This document shows, one piece after another, positions 42,128-58,580 of a stretch of 64,000 bases of DNA. Position 1 is the first letter of the stretch; every line of letters begins with the position of its first letter. The translations under genes were made by a program, and so were the position numbers. The notes beneath the pieces are model-generated. The model made no database searches. It was not told where the DNA came from and worked only from the letters and a program-made list of their open reading frames with translations. The stretch spans positions 310,001 through 374,000 of the forward strand of contig NZ_CP011272.1 of the NCBI RefSeq assembly GCF_001610875.1, given 5' to 3'. The DNA comes from Pirellula sp. SH-Sr6A (GTDB lineage: Bacteria; Planctomycetota; Planctomycetia; Pirellulales; Pirellulaceae).

Positions 42128-43399
42128 ATGGATTGGGCCACCTTGGAAACGCGCAAACGACGTAATTGGTTTCTGGTCGTGATTGCATGGATGCTGGGGG
42201 CGACCCCTTTCGAAACATCCCTGTCACAAGAAAAGCGACCTGCGGAACAAATCGCTGCACCGCCAAGTTCGCTACAAAGTTCGCCGTCAGCAACGGCCGA
42301 TCATTGGCTTCTACACCCGAGTGCGCGGATGCCCCGCACGGCGATCGAGAGAGCCAAGTTCCCGGTTGTGGATTGCCATACCCACTTTTGGGTCAAAGGT
42401 CGGCATGACGAAGACCTTTTGCGACGGTACGTCGCCATGATGGATCGCAACAACATCGCGATTTCGGTTTCTCTCGATGGAACGCTTGGCCCACAACTAG
42501 AGCGCCACGTGAAATTCCTACAGGCTGACTACGCGAATCGCTTTGTGATCTTCGCGAATATCGACTTCCGAGGTGCGGCGGACGAAAAGGACTTTGCGAA
42601 GTGGGAATGCAATCAACCTCATTTCATCCGTAACGTGGTGGAACAGCTTCGGGAAGCTCATCGAAAGGATTGGATCGGTGGTCTCAAGTTTTTCAAGGAC
42701 TTCGGACTTGGCTATCGCGATGCGATGGGCGTGTTGCTTCGGGTTGACGACCCGCGATGGGATCCGATCTGGGAAACCTGCGGAGAGCTTGGACTCCCTG
42801 TCCTAATGCACACGGCTGATCCGAGTGCCTTCTTTCGGCCCATCACGGAAATCAATGAACGAAAGCGAGAGCTCGAGCAGCATCCTGATTGGTCGTTTCA
42901 TGGCGACGGATTCCCGTCCCGCGATGCCTTGCTGGAAGCCAGAAATCGCGTGGTCGGACGCCATCCGAAAACTCGTTTCATCGCAGCACACTTTGGGAAC
43001 GATGCGGAAGACCTGACTCAGTTGTCCCGTTGGCTTGAGGAATACCCCAACCTTCATGTCGAGTTCGCTTCACGCATCAACGAATTGGGCCGGCAGCCCT
43101 ACACGTCTCGCGATTTCTTTGTCCGGTATCAAGACCGAATCCTTTTCGGTACGGATGGTCCATGGCCGGAAAAACGTTTGCATTCCTATTGGCGCTTCCT
43201 CGAAACGAAAGACGAATACTTTGCTTACTCCGATAAAGTCCCGCCACCGCAAGGAGACTGGAACATCTACGGGATCTTTCTCGAAGACAAGATTCTTCGA
43301 AAAATTTACCATGAAAACGCGGCCCGTTTGATCCCTGGAGTTCGAGAGAAACTCTCCGAGCAGTCCAGCCTCCAGTCGCCTGCCCCCGTGCGGAATTGA
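42128..43399 (+). CDS. Exported amidohydrolase-2 family metal hydrolase, active site intact
   Basis: This 423-residue protein has an N-terminal signal (WFLVVIAWMLGATPFETSLS). The body is a TIM-barrel of the amidohydrolase_2 (ACMSD-like) type. Metal ligands are all visible: HxH in VVDCHTHFWV (His84, His86), His228 in LPVLMHTADPS, His288 in FIAAHFGND and Asp343 in ILFGTDGPWP. Lys187 in GGLKFFKDF might be structural. The substrate is unknown. It is the first of eight same-strand genes, but it is of a different amidohydrolase branch from the following seven and is separated from them by about 230 bases. Confidence 0.88.
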   Translation: MDWATLETRKRRNWFLVVIAWMLGATPFETSLSQEKRPAEQIAAPPSSLQSSPSATADHWLLHPSARMPRTAIERAKFPVVDCHTHFWVKGRHDEDLLRRYVAMMDRNNIAISVSLDGTLGPQLERHVKFLQADYANRFVIFANIDFRGAADEKDFAKWECNQPHFIRNVVEQLREAHRKDWIGGLKFFKDFGLGYRDAMGVLLRVDDPRWDPIWETCGELGLPVLMHTADPSAFFRPITEINERKRELEQHPDWSFHGDGFPSRDALLEARNRVVGRHPKTRFIAAHFGNDAEDLTQLSRWLEEYPNLHVEFASRINELGRQPYTSRDFFVRYQDRILFGTDGPWPEKRLHSYWRFLETKDEYFAYSDKVPPPQGDWNIYGIFLEDKILRKIYHENAARLIPGVREKLSEQSSLQSPAPVRN

Positions 43400-43633
43400 G
43401 GGATTGGTTGAACTATTCGCCGAACCAAACGGTTGCCAAGTCGCTACCATCGGAGTAGTTTAGCCGTGTCCGCTTCGTATCGCGACTCGATTCGCTTCCT
43501 TCGCTCTTTTGCATTGGAACAGGAACTCGATCGCGTTGCTCCTCTCCGCGGATCACCACGTGTCTATCGGCATGGAGCGGTCTATGTACTGCTTCCTGCG
43601 TGTTCGTTTCTTTTTAGGCAAACGGTCTGCATT

Positions 43634-46252
43634 ATGCGAGCCTCCATCAGGAGATCGTTTCACGTGATGGGGTGGCTCTGTCTCCTTTTTCTCGTGACAA
43701 CCCTATCTTCGAATACGTGCATCTCGTGGGTGCGCACCGCGTCGATCGCTGGGGAGCCTGCGGACATCAAGGTGGCTGTGGTGAACGCAACGATCCTGAC
43801 CATGGCCGATCAGGGAACGGTGCCGAATGGGACCTTAGTGGTGAGAGGTTCGAAAATTGAAGCGGTCGGTGGTCCCGATTTGCCCATTCCTGAAGGGTAC
43901 CAACGGATCGACGCTGCAGGTGCCTATCTAACACCGGGCTTGATCGATTTGCGAAGCAGTCTTTGGTTGGATGCATCGGACCTGGAAGCTTCGGGAAACG
44001 ATGGCTCGCTTTCCATTCGAGATGCTATCGATCCGGTCGATGAAAATTGGCGAGAGATCCTTTCGACGGGTGTGACGGCTGTCTATATCCAACCATCGTC
44101 GCGAGGGGCAATCGGAGGTCGCGGCATTCTTCTTTCATCCTGGCCAGACGCTTCGGCAAGTCCGAAAATTCTCTCGGATGCAGCGGGATTGCAGATGTCG
44201 ATGGGAACGTCCCGTTCTAACCGAGAAAGATTGCAACGGACCAATTCCCTCAAAGCATGGTTGCAGGGATTGGTAGATTACAAAAAGAAGTGGGACGAAT
44301 ACGAATCCCAACTGAAGAAATTGGAATCGAAAAAGTCAGAAACGGAAACAAAAGAAACAGGCGAAAAAAAGCAGCCAGCGAAAGATTCCGGAAAAGAGCC
44401 TTCCAAGGAGTCGAGCGATGCTGCAAAGACACAGGAAAAAGCAGGGGAAAAGCCACCTGAAAAACCGGTGAAGGATTCGATCAAAGAACAGTTTTTGCCC
44501 CTGCTCGCCGGCAAAATCCCGGTCCGTCTGGAAGTCCACAACATCAACGATCTTCGGTTTGCCCAGGAATTGATGAAAGGGTTTCCCGATGTGCAGTGGG
44601 TCCTGGAATCGCTCGACGAACTCGGACGTTCGACACACGAACTGACCAAGACATCGACGCCAATTGTCCTCCAGCCGATATCGGACGCATGGTTCCCCGG
44701 GGATGCTTCCGTATTGCAGGCGACGTCCAACTATCCAGAACTGCTTAGGAAGCATAAAGGGGTTATCGGCATCGGAACGTTCTCCGGTGCAGCGCGCGGT
44801 TCGAAATCTTTGCGGACCGTCGCGGCGTCCGCAGTCGCCGCAGGTATGCCCCTCGATCGGGCGTTGCAAGCCATTACATCGGTACCGGCCAAGTTGACAC
44901 AAGTGGAACAACAGCTGGGAACCTTGTCGCCAGGCAAGGACGCGACATTCGTTCTCTTTGGCGGTCATCCTCTGGATTTAACATCCCCCGTGCTACGCGT
45001 CTTCACCGAGGGTATCGATCGCACCCAGGAACTAGAACTGAACTCGAAACGGCCGGTCTCGGGTGATACTTCGGCGAAATCCCACAACGGAACGGAAGCA
45101 AAGCCGATGACACTTCCCGATCGATTGCCAGAATCCTACGAAGTGATTTCCAGACGCGTGTGGGTGGACGGGCAATTCATCCACGCTGTGATTCAAGTTC
45201 GGGACGGGAAAATTGCTTCGGTTCAGAAAGTGGATTCGGACGTAACAGAGTTAAAGAGCGGGATTGCCCGGTTCGATGTAAACGATCTTCCTATCACACC
45301 TGGTTTGATTTCCCCTTTTGCGACGCTAGGCATTGCGAACAATGCGATTGCAGGGGCGGAATCCAATTCGCTTCCCATACAAACGAGTGATGCAATCGAT
45401 GGCTCGAATCGGGCGAGAGAACGATGGGGAGGGAGTGGTTTCTATCATGTGGCGTTGGCCTCCTCTCCTGCTAATACCATAGCAGGACAGATCGATCTGG
45501 TTTCTACCGTCCCCCCAAACGATTTAGACGTCGGCACTGTTGCGATCGAGTTCGTGCTGAGTGAATCGGCGCGCAACGCAGGTCGATTTCCTTCCAGCCT
45601 GGCTGGCCAGATCCAAATGCTTCAGGAATTCTTCGGTACCGGTTCCGCAAGCTCTCGTCTGTTTCTTCCAGACGTAGCTTCGATTTGGTGGAGCGAAACC
45701 AGTCGGAGCAAGTCCGTACAACTGCGGGATCGATCGCTTATTTCCCTTTTCGTGGTGCGCGAGGGTGCCGAATTGGATGCTTGCGTCCGGATGACCAAGC
45801 AGTGGGGGCTGCGAGCGGCCGTTTACGGTATCAAATCGCTGCGTGATCATTTGGGGACGCTCGCCGAATCGAAAGCGACACTCATTCTCACCTCGGAAAG
45901 CGAGGAGGACTACCTTTGGTATGGACGCGATGTGGTCGCAAGTTTCGACCAGGGGGTTCCACTCCTCTTTGCAGGCGAGACAGGGCGAGACGCCTTGCGT
46001 GCTGCCGCGGAATGTGTTCGGGCAGGGGTTCGCGAGGAGTATGTATTGCAGCAGCTCATCGATGGCCCTGCGGCATTGTTCCAAATCGATCGTCCACAAA
46101 TTCAGGTTGGAGAGGATGCGGATTTCGTGGTCTGGACGGGCGGTTTGTTATCGGGGCACGCTCCTCGGCCTCGTTGCATCGTTCGCGGTTCGCTGCTCTC
46201 CGTCGAGAAAGAGGAGTCCGCTCCTTATTGGACGGAAGGAGCGCAGCAATGA
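43634..46252 (+). CDS. Exported double amidohydrolase-fold protein, metal site lost
   Basis: This 872-residue protein has a signal peptide (VMGWLCLLFLVTTLSS) and two amidohydrolase-like modules. The first has IKVAVVNATILTMADQG, GTLVVRGSKIEAVGG and AAGAYLTPGLIDLRSSLWLD, where the HxH of active relatives would be expected; it ends with LGTLSPGKDATFVLFGGHPL. The second runs from SYEVISRRVWVDGQFIHAVI to IQVGEDADFVVWTGG and has LPITPGLISPFATLG. Neither keeps HxH. A Lys/Glu-rich linker (44281-44490) sits just before LLAGKIPVRLEVHN. The ATG at 43634 precedes the signal; the longer frame from 43433 is unlikely. It overlaps the next gene by ATGA. Confidence 0.82.
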   Translation: MRASIRRSFHVMGWLCLLFLVTTLSSNTCISWVRTASIAGEPADIKVAVVNATILTMADQGTVPNGTLVVRGSKIEAVGGPDLPIPEGYQRIDAAGAYLTPGLIDLRSSLWLDASDLEASGNDGSLSIRDAIDPVDENWREILSTGVTAVYIQPSSRGAIGGRGILLSSWPDASASPKILSDAAGLQMSMGTSRSNRERLQRTNSLKAWLQGLVDYKKKWDEYESQLKKLESKKSETETKETGEKKQPAKDSGKEPSKESSDAAKTQEKAGEKPPEKPVKDSIKEQFLPLLAGKIPVRLEVHNINDLRFAQELMKGFPDVQWVLESLDELGRSTHELTKTSTPIVLQPISDAWFPGDASVLQATSNYPELLRKHKGVIGIGTFSGAARGSKSLRTVAASAVAAGMPLDRALQAITSVPAKLTQVEQQLGTLSPGKDATFVLFGGHPLDLTSPVLRVFTEGIDRTQELELNSKRPVSGDTSAKSHNGTEAKPMTLPDRLPESYEVISRRVWVDGQFIHAVIQVRDGKIASVQKVDSDVTELKSGIARFDVNDLPITPGLISPFATLGIANNAIAGAESNSLPIQTSDAIDGSNRARERWGGSGFYHVALASSPANTIAGQIDLVSTVPPNDLDVGTVAIEFVLSESARNAGRFPSSLAGQIQMLQEFFGTGSASSRLFLPDVASIWWSETSRSKSVQLRDRSLISLFVVREGAELDACVRMTKQWGLRAAVYGIKSLRDHLGTLAESKATLILTSESEEDYLWYGRDVVASFDQGVPLLFAGETGRDALRAAAECVRAGVREEYVLQQLIDGPAALFQIDRPQIQVGEDADFVVWTGGLLSGHAPRPRCIVRGSLLSVEKEESAPYWTEGAQQ

Positions 46253-47562
46253 TTCGAAAGCAAGAGATGAGTCGAAAGATTTTGTCCGCGGGTTTTGCTT
46301 TTCCATCCACCTTCTTCGATCGAAAGCTCGGAATGTTGAGAGAGATTTCTGGGATCAAGCTCGCGACAATAGCGGCATGTTTGGTCTCCAATCCGTGCAT
46401 AGGGGTGGACGCATGTGCGAACGGTCCGTCGGACGGCGGCAACGCGGTCTTGGTCCAAGCAGAACATGTGATCACCGGCGACGGTGAAATGCTCGAACCG
46501 GGAGCAATATTGATTCGAAATGGCAAGATCGAGGCGATTGGCAAAGAAGTCGTCGCGGAGGGAGCCAAGATCGTTCAAGCAAAATGGGTTATGCCTGGAT
46601 TGGTGAACGCCGCTTCCGATCTGGGGCTCGCGGGTGGAACATCCGAAGTTTCCGCGGAAGTAACGCCTGACTTCGACACCTCTTCGACGATGGACTGGGG
46701 ATCCCGATCCTTTTCCCGTGCGGTCGATGAAGGGATTACGACGTCGCATGTGATTCCCGGGTCGCAGTCGGTTTTCGCCGGCGTCAGCTGTATGGTGAAG
46801 ACGGCGGGAAACGTTGATAACTCCAATGCTCCTTACCTGATGAAGAAGGACTGCGGGCTGACCATTGCATTGTGTACCGATCCGACAGGTCGCAACCAAT
46901 CGCGGGGACGCCCCGACACGGTATTCATGCGGCAGCCCACCAATCGAATGGGGGTGGTTTGGATTCTCCGGAGTTCGTTCCAAAAGGCGATCGAGTCGAA
47001 GACCACTGACGACCTGGATGAGAGGAAAATGACGATCCTTCGCAAAGCTCTGGATCAGTCGTTGCCTCTCTATTCTGTAAGCCGCACCGAAGTCGACATT
47101 CAAAGTTGTTTCACTTTGCAAAACGAATTTGGGGTTCGGCCCATCATCGTAGGTGGAGACGAAGCGTATAGACTGATCGATACCATTGTGGAAAGGAAGC
47201 CAGAGATCGTCTTCACCGGCCTCGCCACGTCGTCACGTGTTGGAGGTCTACGCGGAGAGGAAGGTACCGCCCGAAGATGGAATGTGCTCGGGCAACTCGA
47301 TGCAGCTGGCGCTACCTACTGCTTGGCCGGCGATCAATTGCTCGAGCAAGCAAGATTTGCGCATCGATTTGGACTGAGTCGCGACGCGGCGCTCCGCAGC
47401 ATCACGCTCAGCCCCGCGTCTATCTTGAAGATCGACTCGAGCGTCGGGTCGCTTCGGCAAGGCAAGGCGGCCGACTTGCTCGCCCTGGACTCGGATCCAC
47501 TCGAGTTCCGAACGGCAGTCCAGTGGGTGATGGTCGATGGCAAAGTGCTATCTCAACCTTAG
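46249..47562 (+). CDS. Exported amidohydrolase-fold protein, metal site lost
   Basis: This 437-residue protein has a hydrophobic segment after a charged start (GIKLATIAACLVSNPCIGVD). The fold frame is clear: AVLVQAEHVITGDGEMLEPG, AILIRNGKIEAIGKEV and AKWVMPGLVNAASDLGLAGG, which replaces the HxH segment, then AVDEGITTSHVIPGSQSVFA and GLSRDAALRSITLSPASILK, GSLRQGKAADLLALDSDPLE. No HxH remains and the later His/Asp ligands are not evident. The start codon overlaps the previous stop as ATGA, so the frame opening at 45916 is not used. No substrate can be proposed. Confidence 0.82.
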   Translation: MIRKQEMSRKILSAGFAFPSTFFDRKLGMLREISGIKLATIAACLVSNPCIGVDACANGPSDGGNAVLVQAEHVITGDGEMLEPGAILIRNGKIEAIGKEVVAEGAKIVQAKWVMPGLVNAASDLGLAGGTSEVSAEVTPDFDTSSTMDWGSRSFSRAVDEGITTSHVIPGSQSVFAGVSCMVKTAGNVDNSNAPYLMKKDCGLTIALCTDPTGRNQSRGRPDTVFMRQPTNRMGVVWILRSSFQKAIESKTTDDLDERKMTILRKALDQSLPLYSVSRTEVDIQSCFTLQNEFGVRPIIVGGDEAYRLIDTIVERKPEIVFTGLATSSRVGGLRGEEGTARRWNVLGQLDAAGATYCLAGDQLLEQARFAHRFGLSRDAALRSITLSPASILKIDSSVGSLRQGKAADLLALDSDPLEFRTAVQWVMVDGKVLSQP

Positions 47563-47614
47563 TCAAGTACGTAATCAAGACATACATAACAAACGAGTGC
47601 ACCGGGACAGATTC

Positions 47615-48952
47615 ATGAAACGCAAAGGTTTGGTTTTGATTGCTGCGTGGGGTTTCACCTTCGCTTGCCAGGTTACCGGATTGCTCGCGGATACTTTGGC
47701 GATAAAAGGTGGAACGATTCTGACCGTCTCGGCTGGTCGAATGGAAGACGGGACGATCCTCATTCGCGATGGAAAAATCGAATCCGTCGGTAAGGATGTT
47801 CCAGTTCCCATCGAAGCGACCGTGATCGATGCGAAAGGGAAAGTCGTCATTCCAGGGTTCGTGGAGGCGCATACTTCGGAAGGCATGGGGCAGTCGAACG
47901 AACGAAATGATTTTGTCCCCTTCCTTTCCGTCGTGGACTCGATAGATCCCGTGCTCGATTTCTTTGAAGAGTCGCGACGAAACGGAGTCACGACAATTGC
48001 GATCGTACCGGGGAATAGCACGCTCGTAGGAGGACGATCCGCAATTTTGAAGACTGCTGGGCAGTATGTCGACGACATGATCGTGCGGCGAGATGCGGGA
48101 GTAAAGGTGGCCATGCAACCAACCAACGGAAGCCGGATGGGGCATTTGGCTCGATTGCGAAAGGAACTCGACAAAGCAAAACAATCCTTGGAGAAGCGAA
48201 GCAAAGGAGAACTGGACTCGAAGGAGTCAGCCAAACCCGAAAGCGGTGAAAAGAAGCAAGACGATGCGCCGAAGCCCGATGGGAATGGTGCCGATGCTTC
48301 GCAGCCCGAGAACAATGCAGCTAGCGAAGCCTTGTATGCGTCCAAAGGCTTAGATGTGATGATGGACGTTGTTGCAGGAAAGACTCCGGTTTTCCTTTAC
48401 TGCGATTCCGCGATGGATGTCGCCAACGGAAAGCAGCTCGCCAAGGACTACAGCCTCGATTGTATCTTCGTCCTGGGTAGAACCGCATACAAAGCAGTAG
48501 ACCTGTTGAAAGATGCGAAGCATCCCGTTGTTCTTGACAAGAGTCTGGTCTTTTGGGAGTCGGAGCCTCGCACGCGGATGGAATCTAAAGTGGTACTACC
48601 CAAGGTTTTTCTGGATGCGAAGGTGCCGTTCGTTTTTCAAACCGGAGATGGCGGTTTCCGAACCACAATTGGTTCTAGCTACCTTTGGTATCAGGCGGCT
48701 GTGGCTGTGAAGGCGGGGATGTCGGAAGAAGCGGCTCTTCGGGCCTTGACTCTGACCCCGGCCGAATTGCTGGGGGTCTCGGAGCTAGTGGGTTCAATTG
48801 AAGCAGGAAAGGATGCGGATCTGGTAATTCTCTCTGGAAAACCACTTCGAACGGCGACTTGGGTCGAGAAGACAATTGTCAACGGGAAGGTCGTATACGA
48901 TCGGTCCAACGACGACAAACTAAAGCGACTCTTATCCCCGAAAGCGGAGTAG
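47615..48952 (+). CDS. Exported amidohydrolase-fold protein with half-lost HxH
   Basis: This 445-residue protein has a clean signal peptide (LVLIAAWGFTFACQVTGLLA). It has TLAIKGGTILTVSAGRMEDG, TILIRDGKIESVGKDVPVPI, VVIPGFVEAHTSEGMGQSNE (first His kept, second replaced by Ser), RNGVTTIAIVPGNSTLVGGR, and the C-terminal LTLTPAELLGVSELVGSIEA followed by GKDADLVILSGKPL. A Lys/Glu/Asp-rich linker (about 48170-48330) precedes the strand VVAGKTPVFLYCDS. An Asp in FQTGDGGFRT may be the remnant of the last ligand. It begins 52 bases after the previous gene and is followed by the next after 5 bases. Confidence 0.83.
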   Translation: MKRKGLVLIAAWGFTFACQVTGLLADTLAIKGGTILTVSAGRMEDGTILIRDGKIESVGKDVPVPIEATVIDAKGKVVIPGFVEAHTSEGMGQSNERNDFVPFLSVVDSIDPVLDFFEESRRNGVTTIAIVPGNSTLVGGRSAILKTAGQYVDDMIVRRDAGVKVAMQPTNGSRMGHLARLRKELDKAKQSLEKRSKGELDSKESAKPESGEKKQDDAPKPDGNGADASQPENNAASEALYASKGLDVMMDVVAGKTPVFLYCDSAMDVANGKQLAKDYSLDCIFVLGRTAYKAVDLLKDAKHPVVLDKSLVFWESEPRTRMESKVVLPKVFLDAKVPFVFQTGDGGFRTTIGSSYLWYQAAVAVKAGMSEEAALRALTLTPAELLGVSELVGSIEAGKDADLVILSGKPLRTATWVEKTIVNGKVVYDRSNDDKLKRLLSPKAE

Positions 48953-48957
48953 CTGCC

Positions 48958-51675
48958 ATGTCAACATTCGACGGATTGCGCATTTCAGCGACGAGGACCA
49001 AAGTGATGAGGCTCCAGCTAACCGCTCTCTGCAATTTGATCCTCTGCATCTTTGGATTTGTCTGTGCACTACCGACGTCGGTTAGAGCAGAGGTGGGCGC
49101 TTTCGGCGCTGCCGACCCGGATGATTCGGACTCGAGAACTATTTTTCAAGTTGGTCAACTTTACTCTGGAAGCGAAGCTCCCATCCGCGATGCGGTCATC
49201 GTCGTTCAGCAAGGCAAGATCGTTGCAATTGGTCCGCGATCGAGTGTGAAATGGGAGCCATCCGACAAGTTGGTCGACTGCCGCAATGCCACGGCGATTC
49301 CAGGACTTTTGATGGCGGATACAAATCTCGTCGAAAGAGGAAACGATGAGCCGCGGACATTTACTCCGGAAAATCGCGCCATCGATGCGTTCGATTTTTT
49401 CAAAGATCGAGCCGAGCTTCTCGCGGCGGGAATTACCACCGTCCACCTTTCTGCTCCCAGCAATCGATTGATGCCAGGGAAGAGTGCGATCGTAAAGCTC
49501 GCCGGTAAAGAGACCGCGGATCGAATCCTTCAGGCAGAAGAGAGCATGAAGATCGTTCTCTCACGTGAATCGCTTAATCCACCCACCATCTACGAGCCAC
49601 CCGTCGGCGCTGTTTCGGTAGATAGGCCTTTAAAACCGACGCAACCGCAGTTAGGGGCTTCTTTGGCGGAAGTCATGGCGGGCCTTCGCGCGATCTTTGA
49701 GGGGACCAAGTCGGGGAAGAGCGAGGATCTTTCCATTGAAACACTTCGAAACTGGCTCGATGCCAAACGAACTTTCCAAATCCATGCCTCTTCGGGTAGT
49801 GAGCTTCGAGCGGCGGTGGGAGTATCCAAATGGCTCCCAGGCGAATGGTACGTCGTCGCGCCGAAGGAATTTATTCAACCGTTTGATAAAGCGTTGCTCG
49901 CTTCGAACGCATTCCGGGGCGTGGTGCTCAAGTCTGAAGTCCGACCAGGAGCTATCAACAATCCGCCTGTGCCACGCGAGGTGGATCGCAATGTTTTGGA
50001 ACCGTGGGAATTTGCGGAACGAATGAAGGGGCAGGGATTTGTTCATAAGGTTGCCATCCAGGCTGCGACGGACGCCGATCTGAAATCCATATTTTTCTTA
50101 GCCAAGCAACTTGTACGAGGAGGATGGACACACGACGAGTGTTTAGCTGCCCTCACATGGAATCCCTCTCGAATACTTGGCGTAGACAGTCGTGTGGGGC
50201 GTCTGGCTGTTGGAATGGATGCTGACTTCGTGCTTCTAACCGATCCTCCTTTCGAAGAAGGTGCTGAAGTTTTAGCGACCTATGTCGATGGCCAAAAGGC
50301 TTATGAGAAGAAGGTGGAATCGGATGCGATCGTGATCGACGCATCCCAAATTATCACCCCCCATGGCGTCGTCGCCGATGGGAAGATCACAGTGGCTTCG
50401 GGCAAAATTCGCTCGGTGGGCAAAGAGGCTACGATTCCCCGCAATGCCCGTCGATTGAGTTTCCCGGATGGCGTCGTCGTACCGGGATTCATCGATGCGG
50501 GTTCGGAGCTGGGGCTAGGGTTACCGTTGTCGGAAACTATTCCGCTGGAAACAAAACTGGGTTCCCTCCTCGCTTACGACGACCCGGCCATTCAGTTCGC
50601 GAGAGAGGGAGGTGTCACTACCGCGTTGCTGAGCAGCTCTCGATTGCCTAGCCCTGTCATCGCTTTCAAGTTGTTAGATCGACCTCGTGCGCTCAAGGAT
50701 CCTGTCGCTATCCGATTTGAAGTGAGCGGGAACTTGACGACGGCTGAATTGAATTCCAGGAGAACACTTCTCACCGCTAAGCAATATGTCGACTCTTGGA
50801 CGCGATATGACGAAAGCATGCTCGAATATCAATCCAAAATAAAAGCGTACGAGATCGAGAAGAGGAAATTCGACGACGCGGCAAAAGAGTCCGAAAAGAA
50901 AAAGCAGGAAGAGGCATCAAAAAAATCGGCCGATTTGACCTCGAATCCGCCCGAGAATCCAAATCCCAAGGAAGGGAGTAAGCCTAGCGGTGCACCGAAG
51001 TCGGTAGGTTCCTCCGGCGAAAAGGAATCTCCAGGTCAGGCTCAACAAGGTGCGGAGAAAGAAGGGGAAAAGGAGCTCGAGCGATTGAAGGAGCCCGAGA
51101 AGCCCAAAGAACCAGAAAAGCCGAAATCGAATGCGAGTTTGGAGCCATACCGCGAGCTCTTTGCAGGAAAGATACTCGCCATTGTTGAGATCGAGGATTT
51201 CCGTGGGGCAGAACTGGCATTCAAGCTCTTTCACTCCGAGTACAAGCTCCCATTGGTTCTCGCCGGAGGCAAAGGCCTGTGGGAAGCTTCCGACTGGATC
51301 TCCAAAGGATCATTACCGGTCATTCTCGGGCCGGCGTTTTCGATCGAGGAACGAGGGGAGTCGATCGATCTTCCCGCCGAAATGGCGCTTCAGAATATTC
51401 CCTTTCTGGTTCAATCCAAAGGGACTACGGGAGTGAAACAGCTTAGCGAAGCGCTTGCCTATTCCGCTTTTCGCGGTCTCGCAAAGTCGAAAGGACTCGC
51501 GGCGCTGACCACGACGGCTTCCGCGACGCTGAAACTGCCCTCGATCGGGGCGATCGACGAGGGCCGTGACGCAGATCTTGTTGTGCTTAGCGGTAGCCCC
51601 CTCGATATCGCCACAGAAGTCTTAGCCGTCATCATCGACGGTAAGATCGTCTTCTTGAAGGAGTCCAAGGAATAA
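48958..51675 (+). CDS. Exported double amidohydrolase-fold protein with charged linker
   Basis: This 905-residue protein has a signal-like segment from the internal Met at 49006 (LQLTALCNLILCIFGFVCAL). Module 1 has AVIVVQQGKIVAIGPRSSVK, ATAIPGLLMADTNLVERGND and VGRLAVGMDADFVLLTDPPF. Module 2 has GVVADGKITVASGKIRSVGK, GVVVPGFIDAGSELGLGLPL, GGVTTALLSSSRLPSPV and IDEGRDADLVVLSGSPLDIA. Neither module keeps HxH. A long Lys/Glu/Pro-rich linker (about 50850-51140) lies before LFAGKILAIVEIED, the same place as in the 43634 and 47615 proteins. The ATG at 48958 has GGAG 8 bases upstream. Confidence 0.83.
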   Translation: MSTFDGLRISATRTKVMRLQLTALCNLILCIFGFVCALPTSVRAEVGAFGAADPDDSDSRTIFQVGQLYSGSEAPIRDAVIVVQQGKIVAIGPRSSVKWEPSDKLVDCRNATAIPGLLMADTNLVERGNDEPRTFTPENRAIDAFDFFKDRAELLAAGITTVHLSAPSNRLMPGKSAIVKLAGKETADRILQAEESMKIVLSRESLNPPTIYEPPVGAVSVDRPLKPTQPQLGASLAEVMAGLRAIFEGTKSGKSEDLSIETLRNWLDAKRTFQIHASSGSELRAAVGVSKWLPGEWYVVAPKEFIQPFDKALLASNAFRGVVLKSEVRPGAINNPPVPREVDRNVLEPWEFAERMKGQGFVHKVAIQAATDADLKSIFFLAKQLVRGGWTHDECLAALTWNPSRILGVDSRVGRLAVGMDADFVLLTDPPFEEGAEVLATYVDGQKAYEKKVESDAIVIDASQIITPHGVVADGKITVASGKIRSVGKEATIPRNARRLSFPDGVVVPGFIDAGSELGLGLPLSETIPLETKLGSLLAYDDPAIQFAREGGVTTALLSSSRLPSPVIAFKLLDRPRALKDPVAIRFEVSGNLTTAELNSRRTLLTAKQYVDSWTRYDESMLEYQSKIKAYEIEKRKFDDAAKESEKKKQEEASKKSADLTSNPPENPNPKEGSKPSGAPKSVGSSGEKESPGQAQQGAEKEGEKELERLKEPEKPKEPEKPKSNASLEPYRELFAGKILAIVEIEDFRGAELAFKLFHSEYKLPLVLAGGKGLWEASDWISKGSLPVILGPAFSIEERGESIDLPAEMALQNIPFLVQSKGTTGVKQLSEALAYSAFRGLAKSKGLAALTTTASATLKLPSIGAIDEGRDADLVVLSGSPLDIATEVLAVIIDGKIVFLKESKE

Positions 51676-51676
51676 C

Positions 51677-52975
51677 ATGCTGCTGCACCGATTCATTCCT
51701 CCCTATGCCCGAGTTAGACATCTGGGTGGCGTTATAGCCTTGGGGTGTGTGCTCGCTCTTTTTTGCGTTGCGATGTCCGCTGTCGCAGTGGGCGAAGAGC
51801 CATCACCTGATAATCATCGAATCGCCGTGCGAGTGGGGAAAGTCATCACATGCGCTGGCGAACCGATCCTCGATGGCGTTATCCTTATCGAGAACGGAAA
51901 GATCCAATCCGTAGGTCCATTTGCTAGTCTGACGATCCCAGAGGGTTGCAGCGTGATTCACCATCCCGATTCGTTCGCGATGCCTGGCCTCATCGAGGCG
52001 CATTCGCACGTAGGAGGGACTGGGGATTTGAATGAGATGGTTTATCAAACCAACCCAGAACTTCGGAACTGGGACCAGATCATTCCTCACAATGAAAAGC
52101 TCAAAGTGGCCATCGCAGGGGGTGTCACCACCGTCTGCTTTATCCCAGGTAGCGGAACCAACATGGGCGGCTGGGGAACGCTGATGAAAACTGGCCCTGG
52201 CAAACTTTCCGAAATCATCCTCAAAGCGCCGGGGGTTCTTAAGATCGCCCAAGCGGGGAACCCGGAACGGAGCGCTGGCGAGGTAGGTTCGGGTCGGATG
52301 GGCATGAATCACGTGATCCGTCAACAACTCCTCGAGGGACGTCTTTACGTTCAACAATGGGATGCGTACGAGTCGGGCAAGACGACGGTGAAACCAGAAT
52401 TCAATCTGCGTTTGGAGTACTTCAAGCCCTTGTTCCATCGCGAGATCCCCGTCGTCGTACACACACAGCAATACCAAGTCGTTCAATCGACCCTCCGAAT
52501 GCTTGTCGACGAAATGAATCTGAAGATCGTGATCGACCACGGGACGTTTGATGCGTTTAAGCTGGCCGAGGAGGTCAACAAGCGGGGCATACCCGTCATG
52601 GCAGGTCCTCGGGGCTTTTGGATGGACCCTGCAAATGGCCAGATTCGCGGCATCGTCGTCGAGTATGCCAATCGAGGGACGACGCTCCTCGGAGTCAACA
52701 CCGACGCGCCTGTGATTCCGCAGGAGGAGCTCTCATTTCAAGCGACGATGGCAGTCAGGTATGGCTGGGATGAAGAGAAAGCCATTCGCGGCTTGACGAT
52801 CGAAGCAGCTCGCGCCTTGATGATAGAGGATCGGGTCGGGTCACTCGAACCCGGCAAGGACGCGGATATCGTGATCTCGACCGGTTCGCTGATCGACCCA
52901 CGTCACTATGTCAAGCAAGTCTTCATCAACGGGAAGAGCGTCTATGACATTCAAGTGGACAGGAGAAGGTTTTAA
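51677..52975 (+). CDS. Exported amidohydrolase, active site intact
   Basis: This 432-residue protein is the only one of the seven related genes with a full metal site. It has HxH in PGLIEAHSHVGGTG (His109, His111), His262 in IPVVVHTQQYQ, His288 in LKIVIDHGTFDAF and Asp343 in LGVNTDAPVIPQEE. The signal segment is GVIALGCVLALFCVAMSAVA. It belongs to the imidazolonepropionase/dipeptidase-like group of amidohydrolases, with GGVTTVCFIPGSGTNMGGWG and SLEPGKDADIVISTGSL. The substrate is unknown. It starts 1 base after the upstream stop and ends 6 bases before the next start, so it is clearly part of one operon with the inactive relatives. Confidence 0.9.
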   Translation: MLLHRFIPPYARVRHLGGVIALGCVLALFCVAMSAVAVGEEPSPDNHRIAVRVGKVITCAGEPILDGVILIENGKIQSVGPFASLTIPEGCSVIHHPDSFAMPGLIEAHSHVGGTGDLNEMVYQTNPELRNWDQIIPHNEKLKVAIAGGVTTVCFIPGSGTNMGGWGTLMKTGPGKLSEIILKAPGVLKIAQAGNPERSAGEVGSGRMGMNHVIRQQLLEGRLYVQQWDAYESGKTTVKPEFNLRLEYFKPLFHREIPVVVHTQQYQVVQSTLRMLVDEMNLKIVIDHGTFDAFKLAEEVNKRGIPVMAGPRGFWMDPANGQIRGIVVEYANRGTTLLGVNTDAPVIPQEELSFQATMAVRYGWDEEKAIRGLTIEAARALMIEDRVGSLEPGKDADIVISTGSLIDPRHYVKQVFINGKSVYDIQVDRRRF

Positions 52976-52981
52976 ACACGC

Positions 52982-54295
52982 ATGAAAAGTCCATTTGCAA
53001 TAAAATATTGTCGTTGGCTTCCATCGCGGCACAACGCTAACGCGTTAGCTTGGGCGGTACTCCCAGTTGTTTCGTGGATTTCCGTAGGCGAAATGCTTGG
53101 AAACGATGCGGTCGTGATACGAAACGCGACGATACATACCTTGACCGATCCCAAGCCATTGGAGAATGCCACCTTGCTCATCGAGGACGGCAAGGTGAAG
53201 AGCGTAGGGAAAGATACAGCGATTCCAATCGATGCCCAAATCCTCGACGGCACCAACAAACACGTCACGCCAGGATTTCTTTCCGTCTTCTATCCGCTAA
53301 CACTCCAAGCGGAGAATTCGTCGGAAGAGACTCGAACCGTCGTTGTCGGGGGAAGAACGTTTACGCTAGGAGGGCGTTCTCCCACGGCCCGCGGTCCGCT
53401 ACAGAAGGTATCGGAACTGATTCGAAAGGACGCGATCGACTGGAGGCCGCTCTTGCGTTCCGGAATCACCACGGCGCATGTCATTGCACCCGGCTATTCC
53501 TACACGGCCATCGTGATACCATCTAACTATTCTGAAGAGAATCCATCGGAATTGAAAGTCTTGAAGGAGGATGGATTCCTGGGAGTGACGGTGACCAACA
53601 ACGAACGTAGTCTGGACCTACTTCGAAGCAATCTAAAGCCCCCGTCTTCGAATCGAGGTTCTCGCGGTCCCTCCGCTTCTCCTGCGAACAATTCAGGTAA
53701 TGCAGGAGCCAGCGGCCCCTCGACTCCTCCGGAATCGTCGGATGAGCAAAAGCTATGGGCAGAAGTTCGCGAGGGGACCAAACCCATTGTGATCAATTGC
53801 AATAATGCCGCAACGATTCTTCATGTCGAGTCGATTCTCAAAGAGTTTCCAAAAGCAAAGGTGCAGTGGATTGTTAATGGAGCGGATGCGTATGCGGCGC
53901 GTCAAAGCATTCGAAAGGACCAATCGGTTTTACTCTTGCCACCTCGCATCGATCTGATTCCGAACTCTCGGGTGCGTGTGAACGTTCCTGCACTGGCTGC
54001 TAAAGAGAAGATCCCTTTTGCGATTGCCCTGGGGCAACGTTCGATCGATTTGACCGAATCCCAGGCATCCCCGACGTTTGCACTTGGGGTCCTGATCAAG
54101 ACCGGACTTTCGGAATTCGAGGCGCTAGCGTCGGTTACTTCGACACCTGCGAAGTTGCTGGGACTTGAGAAGACCCACGGCATGATAGCACCAGGATCAC
54201 AAGCCGATTTGATTTTGTTCGACGGTCCACCTTTTGATGTGGCTACCGAAATCGAAACGTTGCTCTTGGAAGGTAAAGTCGTTTATGAAAACTAA
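52982..54295 (+). CDS. Exported amidohydrolase-fold protein with Ser/Gly/Pro linker
   Basis: This 437-residue protein keeps AVVIRNATIHTLTDPKPLEN, ATLLIEDGKVKSVGKDTAIP, HVTPGFLSVFYPLTLQAENS (HxH lost) and LRSGITTAHVIAPGYSYTAI, then VTSTPAKLLGLEKTHGMIAP and SQADLILFDGPPFD. A Ser/Gly/Asn/Pro-rich linker (about 53635-53745) precedes the strand TKPIVINCNNAATI, at the site where its relatives carry charged linkers. The N-terminal hydrophobic stretch (ALAWAVLPVVSWISVGEM) may be a signal or anchor. It overlaps the next gene by 11 bases. Confidence 0.8.
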   Translation: MKSPFAIKYCRWLPSRHNANALAWAVLPVVSWISVGEMLGNDAVVIRNATIHTLTDPKPLENATLLIEDGKVKSVGKDTAIPIDAQILDGTNKHVTPGFLSVFYPLTLQAENSSEETRTVVVGGRTFTLGGRSPTARGPLQKVSELIRKDAIDWRPLLRSGITTAHVIAPGYSYTAIVIPSNYSEENPSELKVLKEDGFLGVTVTNNERSLDLLRSNLKPPSSNRGSRGPSASPANNSGNAGASGPSTPPESSDEQKLWAEVREGTKPIVINCNNAATILHVESILKEFPKAKVQWIVNGADAYAARQSIRKDQSVLLLPPRIDLIPNSRVRVNVPALAAKEKIPFAIALGQRSIDLTESQASPTFALGVLIKTGLSEFEALASVTSTPAKLLGLEKTHGMIAPGSQADLILFDGPPFDVATEIETLLLEGKVVYEN

Positions 54296-55868
54296 TCGAT
54301 CGTGGATGCGACTTTGGTTGCTAGGGCTAATGGGCTGTTCGATCGTGGGCGCCGACACGTATGCGTGGCAGCCGCCCGGCGGACGTGGCCCGAATCGAGG
54401 TCCTCAGCGCGAAGATAGCAGGCAACGCACGGCACCGTCCGAAGATGAGAAAAAGCAATCTGCTGCACCCAAACCGGAGCCCGAGTGGCTTGCGATCGTT
54501 GGAGGAGATGTGCATACCGTTTCACGGGAAGTCATCCGGCGTGGGACTGTTCTTATCGAGAACGGGAAGATCAAGGCGATCGGGACTAATGTCGATATTC
54601 CAGAAAAGGCCACGCGGATCGATGCAACTGGAAAATGGGTTACTCCCGGCTTCATAGCCTTGAATATGTCCGGTGTTGGTGTTTCGGGTGGAGCGGACGG
54701 AAAGCTCGCCGATGAATTCAATCCGTTTGATCGCAATATCCAATTTTCACTTTCGGTCGGTATCACCTCGGGGGCCGTTCAAGTTCGAGGCGGCGGGCAA
54801 GGGCGAGGTCGTCGCGGTGTCGAGGCGGACGCAGCCACGGTCCGTCCAAACGATGAGTTCTACGAAGTGACAGAACGCTTCCCTGGTTTCGATCCGGACT
54901 CGAGCGAATTGGAGCGAACCTCGCAATCGATGGAACGGAGAGCCTATGGGGAATTGGTGCAGCTTTGCCCCTGCTGCAGTCTCCCGATCCTACCGACGGA
55001 GCCCATCGCTCCGACCCCTCCTTCTCCGATCGTCCCACAAAAGAGCTCGGTCATTAAGATGTCGTTCGGGCAGTTAGAGGGCATGCTCGTAAAGGAGGTC
55101 GCATTTTTGGACTTAACGCCAGGCGCGTTGAGCGGCGCGACCAATCAATCTGCCTGGCGCGATCAGATCCAGAAAGCCAAGCAATACCTAAAGGACCAAG
55201 CGGCTCACGAGCAAGCGACGCGGGAAGGGAAGCGAGAAAACCCTCCTCGCAAACCGGTGAGCGATGAAATTCTTAGTTTAGTGAAAAAGGAGATCGCCCT
55301 TCGGATTCCTGCGAGCCGTGTCACCGAAATGCGTGAGCTTTGTCAACTATCGAAAGATCTGGACTACCGGCTGGTGATCAAGGGAGGGATCGAAGGTTGG
55401 GTTATTCCTAAAGATTTAGCGGAGGCAAATGTCGGTTTGACCATCACCCCACGTGTGCGACGGGAACCCAGATTCGGTGAGGAGGATAGTTCGGGAAGCT
55501 GGATTGAATTGCCACGCGTCCTTGAATCAGCAGGGATACCATTTGCGGTGGAACCGCTCGAAGGTGCTGTGAGCATGGTCGGTTTAGCGGGACGAGATCT
55601 GATGAGTCTACCCCTCGAAGCTGCGTTTGCAGTGCGAGGTGGTGCGAGCGAGGCCAAGGCGTTAGCGGCAATCACGCTAGTTCCTGCCGCGATGCTTGGG
55701 TTAGAAGATCGGCTTGGAGCGATCGAGGTTGGCCGTGATGCGGATTTGCTCATCCTCAATGGCAATCCCCTCGATTATCGCACCTACGTAGAAACGTCGA
55801 TCGTGAATGGTCGACCTCGTTACCAACGCGACCAAGATTTCGTCTTACCCGTTTACGAACGAAAATAG
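54285..55868 (+). CDS. Exported amidohydrolase-fold protein with Cys-rich insert
   Basis: This 527-residue protein is the last gene of the cluster. A signal peptide (MRLWLLGLMGCSIVGADTYA) is followed by a Gly/Arg/Pro/Gln-rich linker. The fold frame is EWLAIVGGDVHTVSREVIRR, GTVLIENGKIKAIGTNVDIP, KWVTPGFIALNMSGVGVSGG (HxH lost) and ITLVPAAMLGLEDRLGAIEV with GRDADLLILNGNPL. An insert has LVQLCPCCSLPILPTEPIAP, a CPCC cluster that might bind a metal or form disulfides. The start at 54285 has GGAAGG upstream and overlaps the previous gene by 11 bases. A weak stem follows the stop, and no convincing terminator was found. Confidence 0.8.
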   Translation: MKTNRSWMRLWLLGLMGCSIVGADTYAWQPPGGRGPNRGPQREDSRQRTAPSEDEKKQSAAPKPEPEWLAIVGGDVHTVSREVIRRGTVLIENGKIKAIGTNVDIPEKATRIDATGKWVTPGFIALNMSGVGVSGGADGKLADEFNPFDRNIQFSLSVGITSGAVQVRGGGQGRGRRGVEADAATVRPNDEFYEVTERFPGFDPDSSELERTSQSMERRAYGELVQLCPCCSLPILPTEPIAPTPPSPIVPQKSSVIKMSFGQLEGMLVKEVAFLDLTPGALSGATNQSAWRDQIQKAKQYLKDQAAHEQATREGKRENPPRKPVSDEILSLVKKEIALRIPASRVTEMRELCQLSKDLDYRLVIKGGIEGWVIPKDLAEANVGLTITPRVRREPRFGEEDSSGSWIELPRVLESAGIPFAVEPLEGAVSMVGLAGRDLMSLPLEAAFAVRGGASEAKALAAITLVPAAMLGLEDRLGAIEVGRDADLLILNGNPLDYRTYVETSIVNGRPRYQRDQDFVLPVYERK

Positions 55869-56053
55869 CCTAGGGTTCTCCACTTCTTCGCCACTAGGGC
55901 CAGCATGTCTATCAAGCTACCTCATCACCGCCACGGATAAAAACATCTTTCCGTCGCCGTACCAAGCGAAGTCTTCCCAATCCACCTTTCCTTATCGCTC
56001 CAAGTCCCGCTGCCCACCCCCCCCCAAATCCCCCTCACTCACCTCCCCCCAAT

Positions 56054-56438
56054 CCGAGGCACCCACCTATTAATTAGGATGCACCCACCTATCACCTTCT
56101 CACCTAATTAGGTGGAAACAATTAGGTGGGTGCCTCTTATTGAGCCGTTGCGACTTGGCGCCTTCGCGAGAAAACTCCCTCCCCCCCATTAGGTGGGTGC
56201 CTTCTATTTACCCTCACCTAATTAGGAGGCGCCCACCTCCCCTACTCCCCATTAGATGGGTGCATCCTATTTCTATTAGGTGGGTGCTTCCTATCAAAAA
56301 AGTGGGTGCCTCTTATTTCCCCATTAAGTGGGTGCCCCCAATCCCCCGTTTATTAGGTGGGTGCCCCGAATCCCCCTTTTGCGTCTTGGCGCCTTCGCGA
56401 GAAACCTCCCTCCCCCCCATTAGGTGGGTGCCTCTCAT
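56054..56438 (+). repeat. Short G-rich repeat array C (upstream of transposase copy 2)
   Basis: Eight forward units start near 56120, 56188, 56251, 56275, 56296, 56323, 56352 and 56419, with core GGTGGGTGCC and mostly ATTA leaders. Three units are inverted (about 56056-56072, 56077-56093 and 56216-56237). A perfect 14-base palindrome CACCTAATTAGGTG lies at 56101-56114, where an inverted and a direct leader meet. The second motif TTGGCGCCTTCGCGAGAAAN occurs at about 56155-56174 and 56386-56405. The last 66 bases are shared with array A. No gene is supported here or in the preceding 185 bases after the amidohydrolase cluster. Confidence 0.85.
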
Positions 56439-57717
56439 TTACCCCTCTCCAAAAAGTTCACCTATTTGGTTGCATCCCTTCCTTCAATCCCATAAGGTGA
56501 TGGGATCTACACCCCGAACTTCTTGGAGAGATCCACCATGTCCAGCACGCTCCGCTGTGAGCAGTTCGTCAGCGACGAAATCTGCCTTGTTCATTGCTAC
56601 CATCGCTGTGTCCGTCGCGCCTTCCTCACAGGCATCGATGAGCTCACCCAGAAAGACTACACCCACCGCAGAGAATGGATTCGCCAGCGCCTGGAGTCCC
56701 TGGCCTCTGTCTTCGGTATCGACGTTCTCCAATATGCCGTCCTATCCAATCACCTCCATGTCATCCTCCGCAATCGCCCCGATGTCGTGAAGACTTGGTC
56801 CGACGTAGAAGTCGCCACCCGCTGGCTAAGACTCTTTCCAGGCACCCGAATCCTCGATGTCTTGGCCGAGCCCAACGAGGAGGATGTCCGAAGCGCTGTA
56901 GCCAATCCCGAGAAGATCCAAGAGTATCGCAGCCGACTCTCCGATATCTCTTGGTTCATGCGTTCTCTTGCAGAAGTCATCGCTAGGCGAGCCAATGCAG
57001 AAGATGAATGCAGTGGCTGCTTCTGGGATGGCCGATTCAAAGCGAAGCGGCTTCTCGATGAAGCGGGTTTGCTGGCCTGCGCCATGTATGTGGATCTCAA
57101 TGTCTTGCGCGCGAACCTGGCCGCAACAATCGAACTCTCGATGCACACGTCGGTGTTTGATCGAATCGAGGCTGCCAAGGGAGCGATGATCGAATCCTCG
57201 GCTCTGGATCGTATTCCCTTGTCCCGGGAGGAATCGATCGCGAGGAGGACCAAGATGACGCTCGAGGAGCAGAAGAAGGCTCGTAAGCAGACTGGCCCCC
57301 GTCCACTGGTCCCCCGAGACGCCTGGTTGGCCCCTTTGACGCTCGACCCCGGAGTGGACGCGTTTGATCCGCAGGCCAGCACCAATGGTCTGCGCGCCAG
57401 CAACCGAGGGTTCTTGAAGATGAACCTGGAGGACTATGTGAAGTTGTTGCAATGGACTGCTAAGCAGAAGGATCATCCGCCAGGGAGCGTGTGTCGGGTT
57501 CCTGAATCCTTAGAGCCCTTGTTTACCGGCTTGGGAGTGGAACCGAGCATGTGGTGCGACTTGGTGTGGAACTACACGAAGTACTTTGGGACAAGCCGTT
57601 GTAGTGGGAATCCCAAGGCGATGATCGCCGACGCGGAGCGGACCCACAAACGCTGGAGTCGCGGCCAGCGCCAAGCTGCCGCTTGCTTCGCCTAGCGGGG
57701 AGCGATTCGCGACAACT
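56373..57717 (+). repeat. Long direct repeat, copy 2 (partner at 12641-13985)
   Basis: This matches copy 1 at a constant offset without gaps. Upstream of 56373 and downstream of 57717 the sequences diverge into related but rearranged repeat arrays. The near identity over 1.3 kb implies recent duplication or gene conversion. Confidence 0.85.
56538..57695 (+). CDS. Y1/HUH transposase of IS200/RAYT type, copy 2
   Basis: This 385-residue protein is identical in sequence to that of copy 1. The HUH motif NHLHVILRNRP and the GRFKAKRLLDE...MYVDLNVLRANL segment are intact. Two silent differences from copy 1 were noticed (in codons for Ala of LAEPNEED and Leu of SLAEV), plus one base in the leader. 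The ATG at 56538 has GGAG 9 bases upstream. It is flanked upstream by array C and downstream by array D. There is no sign of transposon ends, so it may be immobile and act on the repeats, as RAYTs are thought to do on REPs. Confidence 0.85.
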   Translation: MSSTLRCEQFVSDEICLVHCYHRCVRRAFLTGIDELTQKDYTHRREWIRQRLESLASVFGIDVLQYAVLSNHLHVILRNRPDVVKTWSDVEVATRWLRLFPGTRILDVLAEPNEEDVRSAVANPEKIQEYRSRLSDISWFMRSLAEVIARRANAEDECSGCFWDGRFKAKRLLDEAGLLACAMYVDLNVLRANLAATIELSMHTSVFDRIEAAKGAMIESSALDRIPLSREESIARRTKMTLEEQKKARKQTGPRPLVPRDAWLAPLTLDPGVDAFDPQASTNGLRASNRGFLKMNLEDYVKLLQWTAKQKDHPPGSVCRVPESLEPLFTGLGVEPSMWCDLVWNYTKYFGTSRCSGNPKAMIADAERTHKRWSRGQRQAAACFA

Positions 57718-57952
57718 GGCGACCGGCAAGTAGCAAGTGGCTCCGCTAGCTCCGGTTCCCCACCTTGGAGCCTGAGCCAGAACGTCCGCTCTCCAGTCTC
57801 CCTCTCTCCCATCTCCCTCTCTTCGCCCTCCTGCATTCTCGGGTCCGGCTCGCCGCTGCGCCCATCCGAGCCCAATCCCTCTAAATTCCAGCCCCCCAGG
57901 CCACTTCCGCCCCCAACTCCACCCCAAACCCTGTCCCCCCTCCGTCCCCTCC

Positions 57953-58239
57953 AAAAGATGGGTGCCTGCTATCAAAAGGTGGGTGCCTGCTATTTGAGGA
58001 ACGATTGAAAAGATGGGTGCCTGCTTTCGGGATTGCTCCAAAAGATTGCTATCAAAAGATGGGTGCCTACTATCGGGAATGATTTGAATAGGTGGGTGCC
58101 TGCTATTGGGAATTTCTGCGTCTTGGCGCCTTCGCGAGATACCTCTTCCCCCCAAAAAGGTGGGTGCCTGCTATTTGAGGAACGATTGAATAGATGGGTG
58201 TCCTTAATTGAGAGCGCTGAATAGATGGGTGCCTGCTAG
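57953..58239 (+). repeat. Short G-rich repeat array D (downstream of transposase copy 2)
   Basis: Eight same-direction units start near 57953, 57974, 58008, 58054, 58087, 58154, 58189 and 58220. The leaders are A-rich (AAAAGATGGGTGCCTGCTAT type), as in array B. One remnant (about 58039-58053) has lost the core but keeps AAAAGAT and TGCTATC. One TTGGCGCCTTCGCGAGATAC motif lies at about 58123-58142. The preceding 57718-57952 stretch is C-rich spacer similar to 13986-14212. Confidence 0.85.
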
Positions 58240-58580
58240 TGAGGGAGTGTGCATGGCAGTTGCGACGACCGCGATGCCTCCGATCAACGGCGCGGTAGCC
58301 GATTCCGTTTTACGGCGCGTTGGATTCGGGGTGCACAATCGGCCGCGTTTGTCATGCAGCGAGAAAGTCGACTTTTTGCTATGCTGAAGTTGCGGTGGGC
58401 GATTAGATCGTTTACCCTTGACCATCCTTGGCTCTCCTGGGGGCAGTTATGTGTGGTAACTAACTTGTCCCTTGAGGGCCATTTTCGTTTCAAGAGCAAT
58501 TCTCGCTCATCACTGAATTGCTCTCACATCTTTGCCTAAAGTGCAGTAAAACAGCGTGCTGCTAAACCATCAAGTTCCGC
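58240..58580. other. Intergenic region after array D, nothing recognised
   Basis: A short open frame on the plus strand (58249-58539) has no recognisable domain or ribosome site and is probably chance. I see no terminator or promoter that I would defend. Confidence 0.4.

Follow-up and report, generated by a model that had tools for sequence, protein, structure and literature searches.

Why would a bacterium keep, side by side, so many amidohydrolase folds that have lost their metal site? The question is raised by a locus in the window, the whole stretch of 64,000 nucleotides that was analysed (310001-374000 of a 6.5 Mb single-contig genome). Between 42128 and 55868 eight open frames follow each other, all on the plus strand, and the original prediction had read them as one unit of exported amidohydrolase-fold proteins.

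Composition of the locus and the site of module 6

From 43433 to 55868, seven plus-strand frames are packed closely, either overlapping or separated by a few bases. All seven proteins exceed the Pfam gathering scores for Amidohydro_1 and/or Amidohydro_3, the matches lying mainly in the C-terminal part. As the frames at 43433 and 48859 hold two modules each, the seven genes encode nine amidohydrolase modules, which are labelled 2a-2b-3-4-5a-5b-6-7-8. The parts of the locus are listed here, with likely starts assigned by reading.

43433..46252, plus strand: gene 2, one chain that begins export-like and holds two inactive modules (Pfam, reading); likely start near 43634
about 43718-45097, plus strand: module 2a of gene 2, inactive
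about 45098-46249, plus strand: module 2b of gene 2, inactive
45916..47562 (open frame), plus strand: gene 3, one inactive module (Pfam, profile alignment); likely start 46249 or 46333
47537..48952, plus strand: gene 4, one module that lacks HxH and retains the first His and the Lys together with the N-E motif; likely start 47615
48859..51675, plus strand: gene 5, one chain that holds two inactive modules (Pfam, profile alignment)
about 49099-50322, plus strand: module 5a of gene 5, inactive
about 50314-51672, plus strand: module 5b of gene 5, inactive
51677..52975, plus strand: gene 6, the active module, with candidate ligands H109, H111, K189, H262, H288 and D343
52982..54295, plus strand: gene 7, one inactive module (Pfam, AlphaFold model)
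54234..55868, plus strand: gene 8, a single inactive module that has an insert and a long stretch at the N terminus; likely start 54285

The product of the gene at 42128 belongs to Amidohydro_2, with a match above the Pfam gathering score. The earlier count of about ten folds is matched by nine Amidohydro_1-type modules and this one protein according to Pfam. The gene had also been counted as a member of the unit, which the relatives of the operon do not bear out: no relative of it was found in 78 loci, many with short flanks, or in any flanking cluster of at least three loci.

The best NCBIfam match of module 6 is the Caulobacter-type Xaa-Pro dipeptidase (NF051886) with 68.9 bits at a cut-off of 500, and HutI imidazolonepropionase (TIGR01224) reaches 39.8 bits at a cut-off of 298.15; module 6 thus falls outside both families. 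Its closest solved relative is the Thermotoga maritima amidohydrolase of PDB entry 3ooq (E 5e-51), which we take to be the product of locus TM0119. The same structure is closest to the profiles of gene 4 and gene 5. The AlphaFold models of gene 2 (pTM 0.83) and gene 7 (pTM 0.82) match 3ooq with Z 39.5, for the 2a part, and Z 33.5, respectively, and in both cases 3ooq outranks every other structure listed. The predicted models thus place the beta-sandwich and barrel fold in 2a and 7; for 2b, kinship with module 6 is indicated by profile comparison only.

Export of the proteins had been predicted as well. Ahead of the first module, every one of the seven chains in the window shows a basic residue followed by a hydrophobic stretch, and all seven begin export-like by our own hydrophobicity rule, which is not a trained predictor; the internal modules 2b and 5b have no such stretch. 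By the same rule, in the window and the near loci together, export-like starts were counted for 2a in 23/23, 3 in 18/24, 4 in 22/26, 5a in 23/26, 6 in 29/32, 7 in 29/31 and 8 in 21/28 cases, and a stretch of this kind at the internal modules in 1/23 (2b) and 0/27 (5b).

Among the nine modules of the window only module 6 possesses a complete metal site, consisting of HxH, K, H, H and D. In agreement with the prediction, an HxH within the N-terminal site motif is read only in the frames at 42128 and 51677. The site of HxH, His, His and Asp assigned to the latter frame was likewise confirmed, but a sixth candidate ligand had been missed, the invariant lysine K189, which we presume to be a ligand from our knowledge of the superfamily. 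For the remaining proteins of the operon the loss of HxH holds, although module 4 still keeps the first His, the Lys and N-E.

The six candidate ligands are intact in 85/85 position-6 modules; this count is not fully independent, because position 6 in the distant loci was labelled via the score to the active-module profile, which had also served to find the loci. Module 6 is in addition the most conserved member, with a mean identity of 0.50 vs 0.26-0.39 elsewhere (44 loci). Both results argue that catalysis is under strong selection. Of 66 loci, 55 have a single copy of position 6, 6 have two copies, 2 have three and 3 have four, and a single active subunit is therefore not universal. In the loci with four tandem copies (L096, L105, L113) each copy has a complete site.

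An alternative reading is that the proteins are structural or belong to the cell envelope, their fold having been taken over for adhesion or for organising the wall, and that module 6 is a bystander. The export-like starts would suit such proteins, as would the inserts, charged or rich in Gly/Ser, found in modules 2a, 4, 5b and 7 and the long extra stretch in 8. A bystander, however, should not be the most conserved member with all its ligands kept, and we consider this reading very improbable.

Gene order, selection and fusions

The original prediction suggested searching for the same gene order in other planctomycetes. A scan of genome_contigs with gene 6 yielded 30 loci from named Pirellulaceae, Planctomycetaceae, Gemmatales, Tautonia and others, and the order 2a-2b-3-4-5a-5b-6-7-8 recurs in all of them as far as the contigs reach. 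Tautonia sociabilis (L074) is one of the operon's carriers. From 38 genomes of the phylum, chosen for carrying gene 5 and gene 6 or one of them, 40 regions were compared, and they show the same order where the contig allows; two of these regions, L081 and L108, repeat the earlier loci L069 and L071. Positions in the distant loci were assigned by order and then checked by the tree, not by the best profile: there, the profile of 3 gives the top score for 2b in 19/34 cases, and another profile does so for 7 in 10/35. All nine positions are present at a length of at least 330 aa in 44 loci.

Module 6 was detected at E<=1e-90 in 99 of 393 sampled genomes of the phylum, belonging to 28 families by our own count and to 72 of 271 genera. 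At this threshold it is missing from the other 294, including the other members of the window's own family in the sample. Within the window's own genus gene 6 occurs in 5/25 genomes, and in 1/15 of the other genomes of the order (matches >660 bits). The unit is therefore widespread but patchy. Gene 5 was found in 121/393 genomes (E<=1e-40), the weaker ones matching one module only. In 93 of the 99 genomes with module 6 it is found upstream of gene 6, no more than 8 kb away and in the same orientation on the same contig, 59 times within 600 bases; of the remaining six, five have gene 5 on another contig and in one (G247) it is cut by the contig end. Viral contigs yielded no relative, and six plasmid records contain relatives, each with less than 60% identity.

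A tree was calculated from 572 modules, leaving out, as in the wider-set site comparison below, nine modules shorter than 330 aa as well as the loci L054 (partial), L081 and L108. Positions 3, 4, 6 and 8 form exact clades, and 5a, 5b and 7 form clades but for one to three sequences (60/61 for position 7). The groups of 2b (49/55) and 2a (44/49) have weak support (0.68 and 0.45, respectively), and the sequences labelled 2a in L083 and L095 sit elsewhere in the tree. Active modules, also those from the smaller systems described below, cluster together with a support of 0.90.

dN/dS had been proposed as a check for selection on the inactive modules. In pairwise codon models of five informative pairs (L064/L065, L072/L073, L055 with L036 and L075, L097/L116, L089/L115) omega is 0.04-0.25 at the dead positions and 0.017-0.10 at position 6. 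Position 6 does not always have the lowest value: gene 8 is lower in L055/L075, and there is a tie at 0.040 in L097/L116. Saturated dS or failed optimisation led us to drop window/L050 (2 rows), window/L076 (9), window/L039 (6), L069/L071 (9), L051/L052 (3), and 5b and 7 of L089/L115. Three rows of window/L049 (omega 0.022-0.033, dS 2.5-4.9) are only indicative. Wherever an omega estimate was possible in the five pairs, it shows the dead position to be under purifying selection. With the conserved order, the low omega and the positional clades, the predicted retention of the inactive folds under selection, and their co-inheritance, are well supported, as is export by the export-like starts.

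That the dead copies are decaying duplicates is scarcely credible. Decay was looked for, and only two genes appear disrupted, both on draft contigs: in L066 the 2b is truncated, and in L067 gene 8 is split. Decay is at odds with the low omega values in five pairs and with positional clades that span the sampled families. Divergence is correlated among the positions (r 0.57-0.86, 44 loci). We rejected this correlation as mirror-tree evidence for contact, as shared ancestry alone explains it.

Some of the modules are joined in one chain. 5a and 5b form a single chain in every complete locus; 2a and 2b are fused in the lineage of the window and in some distant loci and split in many distant loci. 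Two further fusions, 2a-2b-3 in L110 and 7-8 in L084, were each seen once as a single frame with no stop and no internal export signal. An apparent fusion of genes 4 and 5 in L111 was rejected, the joining stretch being unreadable and followed by an export-like signal.

A fusion of a dead with an active module is found at a second locus of the window's own genome (L001; G000:C1:963600-968300; L001:5638-10278), where a 1084-aa chain of one dead and one active module is followed by a dead module of 442 aa. Among the matches listed, frames of at least 900 aa match gene 6 at a lower score in 17/24 other genomes of the genus; these may be second systems of the L001 type. Pairs of an active and a dead module, judged on HxH, occur in other planctomycetes (L042-L046, L048), and one such pair is encoded by the Alphaproteobacterial Qipengyuania (L121). 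A plasmid of Hymenobacter volaticus (Bacteroidota, L119) carries a three-module set whose active module is apparently split over two annotated genes. In Acetoanaerobium (Clostridia, L120) an active relative, with 32% identity, stands alone. The number of dead partners thus runs from zero (one Clostridia locus) over one (one Alphaproteobacterial locus and several planctomycetes) to two (one Bacteroidota locus and planctomycetes).

Remnants of the site in the inactive modules

Profile-profile alignment related the eight other positions to module 6, with a probability of 99.8-100 in the near set and of 100 at every position in the wider set. An HxH at the site is kept in 8 of 467 modules outside position 6, and a single site, in a 2b, looks complete. 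None of the 292 sequences at positions 2a, 3, 4, 5b and 7 has a complete site. This count is blind at 2b, 5a and 8, where one ligand column is unaligned; these positions were therefore judged on HxH, and the HxH-keeping 2b modules except those of L064 and L065 also by reading. At 5a and 8 no HxH was found at the site columns in 120 sequences. In L109 the 5b has HxH and lacks the other ligands. HxH-like strings away from the site occur in a few dead modules, for example in 4 of L106, L111 and L117, in 5b of L063 and in 8 of L085.

Position 2b is different in that 7 of its 55 sequences keep HxH, and the one in L099 reads complete with HAH, Lys, His, His and Asp. In the tree this module sits among the other 2b, apart from the active-module group. 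The complete-looking 2b (L099:15427-17292) is a possible second active module within its unit. From these cases, 2b may have lost its activity late and repeatedly. Judged by their residues, the seven positions other than 2b are dead in all sampled lineages. A restored, different metal site in each module had been named as an outcome that would speak against the prediction; at the level of sequence, no complete site of the family's kind appears at seven of the eight dead positions, with module 4 among them keeping part of the site, and position 2b has the L099 module and six further HxH-keeping cases.

In module 4, 54 of 60 sequences keep the first His, 57 keep the Lys and all keep the N-E after it; Tyr replaces the fifth-strand His in 46. 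Beside the retained Lys, H86, Y262 and C263 are invariant (numbering of the aligned stretch, 23 sequences). Such a module, with half its pocket kept, may bind a ligand. Position 2a has Glu at the place of the fifth-strand His in 37/49 sequences. Overall, the C-terminal helix and the beta-sandwich of the dead modules rank high in conservation and most of the former ligand columns do not. Exceptions are the first and the fifth-strand columns of module 4 and the fifth-strand column of 2a, and, more mildly, single former ligand columns of 2b, 3 and 7. Across the phylum most of the former ligand positions vary within one and the same position, and no replacement set is common to the positions.

These remnants bear on two further alternatives. 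First, some of the seemingly inactive modules could be enzymes with a different site, metal-free or with another set of metal ligands. The invariant residues of module 4 and the HxH-keeping 2b, with the complete-looking site of L099, could be taken in this sense. The lack of a shared replacement set and the variation of the ligand positions weaken the idea, and it appears rather improbable. Second, the dead modules could act singly, as exported binding proteins whose remodelled pockets capture or deliver a related substrate with no assembly with module 6. A pocket under selection is what the near-invariant His, Lys and N-E and the frequent Tyr of module 4 would reflect, and the Glu favoured in 2a may be read likewise. 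The ranking of the columns points instead to conservation of the frame and not of a pocket, and independent receptors need neither a fixed order nor fusions. We regard single binders as unlikely, though worth keeping in mind.

A possible assembly around one hydrolase and related systems

The reading we favour, with a probability of about 60%, is that of an exported hetero-oligomer with one hydrolase, whose site is built or gated by dead paralogues. It is preferred because of the fixed order, the fusions between dead neighbours, the dead-active fusion of L001 and the selection on every position. Fusions and co-inheritance bear on the association of the active with the dead chains; selection and co-inheritance would equally fit separately acting proteins that share a task. 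Points that count against the reading are the patchy distribution of the unit, the tandem copies of position 6 in 11 of 66 loci and the HxH kept by some 2b.

In such a hetero-oligomer the seven genes would supply the subunits, gene 6 being the catalytic one, a metal-dependent hydrolase like the Thermotoga protein of 3ooq. The eight other modules would share its fold and ancestry and would have lost the metal site. Each of them would be fixed in its position by a place of its own in the assembly, where its task would be to help form the site of module 6, keep it stable or control access to it. Perhaps the dead modules also bind substrate, module 4 being the best candidate. We infer the physical assembly, its stoichiometry, the gating and the substrate, which at a guess would be peptide-derived amides. 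A more specific form of this reading is put forward tentatively, at less than even odds: a periplasmic hetero-oligomer with nine paralogous modules at positions of their own, comparable to a proteasome or CCT ring. One module would be the metal hydrolase, the eight pseudoenzymes would serve as its gate or chamber, and the assembly would predate the split of the sampled Planctomycetota families.

The neighbourhood offers a thin hint of a peptide-type substrate, from two loci only: a PTR2-family transporter lies beside the Alphaproteobacterial pair (L121) and a Peptidase_M24 protein beside the lone Clostridia relative (L120). No recurring flanking gene offered a functional clue. Among loci whose flank reaches 1.5 kb or more (36 upstream, 54 downstream), and for frames within 5 kb that are at least 100 aa long, no neighbour beyond the nine modules occurs in more than six loci; the example of the largest flanking cluster (six loci) resembles a non-coding frame. 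Elsewhere in the window, a short repeat (TAGGTGGGTGCCT...) is present at 56046-58245 in about 9-10 copies, in either orientation, which flank a gene at 56523-57695 that weakly matches the REP-associated tyrosine transposase (28 bits vs a cut-off of 80); the two are a possible REP/RAYT unit. An IS256 family transposase is encoded at 59281-60567 on the minus strand.

How does such a unit compare with known systems? In 3ooq the residues aligned to the six ligands of module 6 are, by reading, HxH, Lys, His, His and Asp. The relative in L120 differs from the operon in that it has no second amidohydrolase within 3.5 kb on either side and no visible export signal. Proteasome and CCT rings consist of paralogous subunits at fixed positions, and only some of the proteasome subunits are catalytic; these rings are unrelated to the operon modules in fold or function. 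The CRMPs have lost their activity and form hetero-tetramers, but are animal cytosolic proteins that are not known to require an active member. They are alike in being dead amidohydrolase paralogues retained for assembly. CRMPs are dihydropyrimidinase-like proteins (PMC4442009, PMC4051505).

The nearest documented principles would be two others. In the aspartate transcarbamoylase (ATCase) of Pseudomonas an inactive pseudo-dihydroorotase is required for assembly and activity of the catalytic chain (PMC7053772). As described there, a dead chain of the amidohydrolase superfamily likewise serves an active chain, but the active partner belongs to another family and there is one kind of dead chain, whereas the planctomycete operon combines one active with eight dead modules of the same family, all exported. 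AibH1H2 is a heterodimer of amidohydrolase-superfamily relatives in which AibH1 seems structural and AibH2 catalytic (PMC12141560); it differs in having two subunits, in being a hydroxylase and in that AibH1 reportedly retains a metal. A secreted amidohydrolase has been reported with no dead partners in the accessible parts of the text (PMC13081902). Among the papers listed first in literature searches, none describes a nine-module system, judged by title or start of abstract.

In the documented cases known to us, each active partner is accompanied by one or two kinds of dead chain. In this operon one active module has retained eight dead ones, in a fixed order and in genomes from 28 sampled families of the phylum, and with the smaller versions there is a graded natural series in which the step from a homo-oligomer to an assembly with a single active site could be studied. 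The operon points to an uncharacterised exported function in planctomycetes, and the fixed row of nine, with selection on the dead copies, suggests a protein machine around a single working enzyme.
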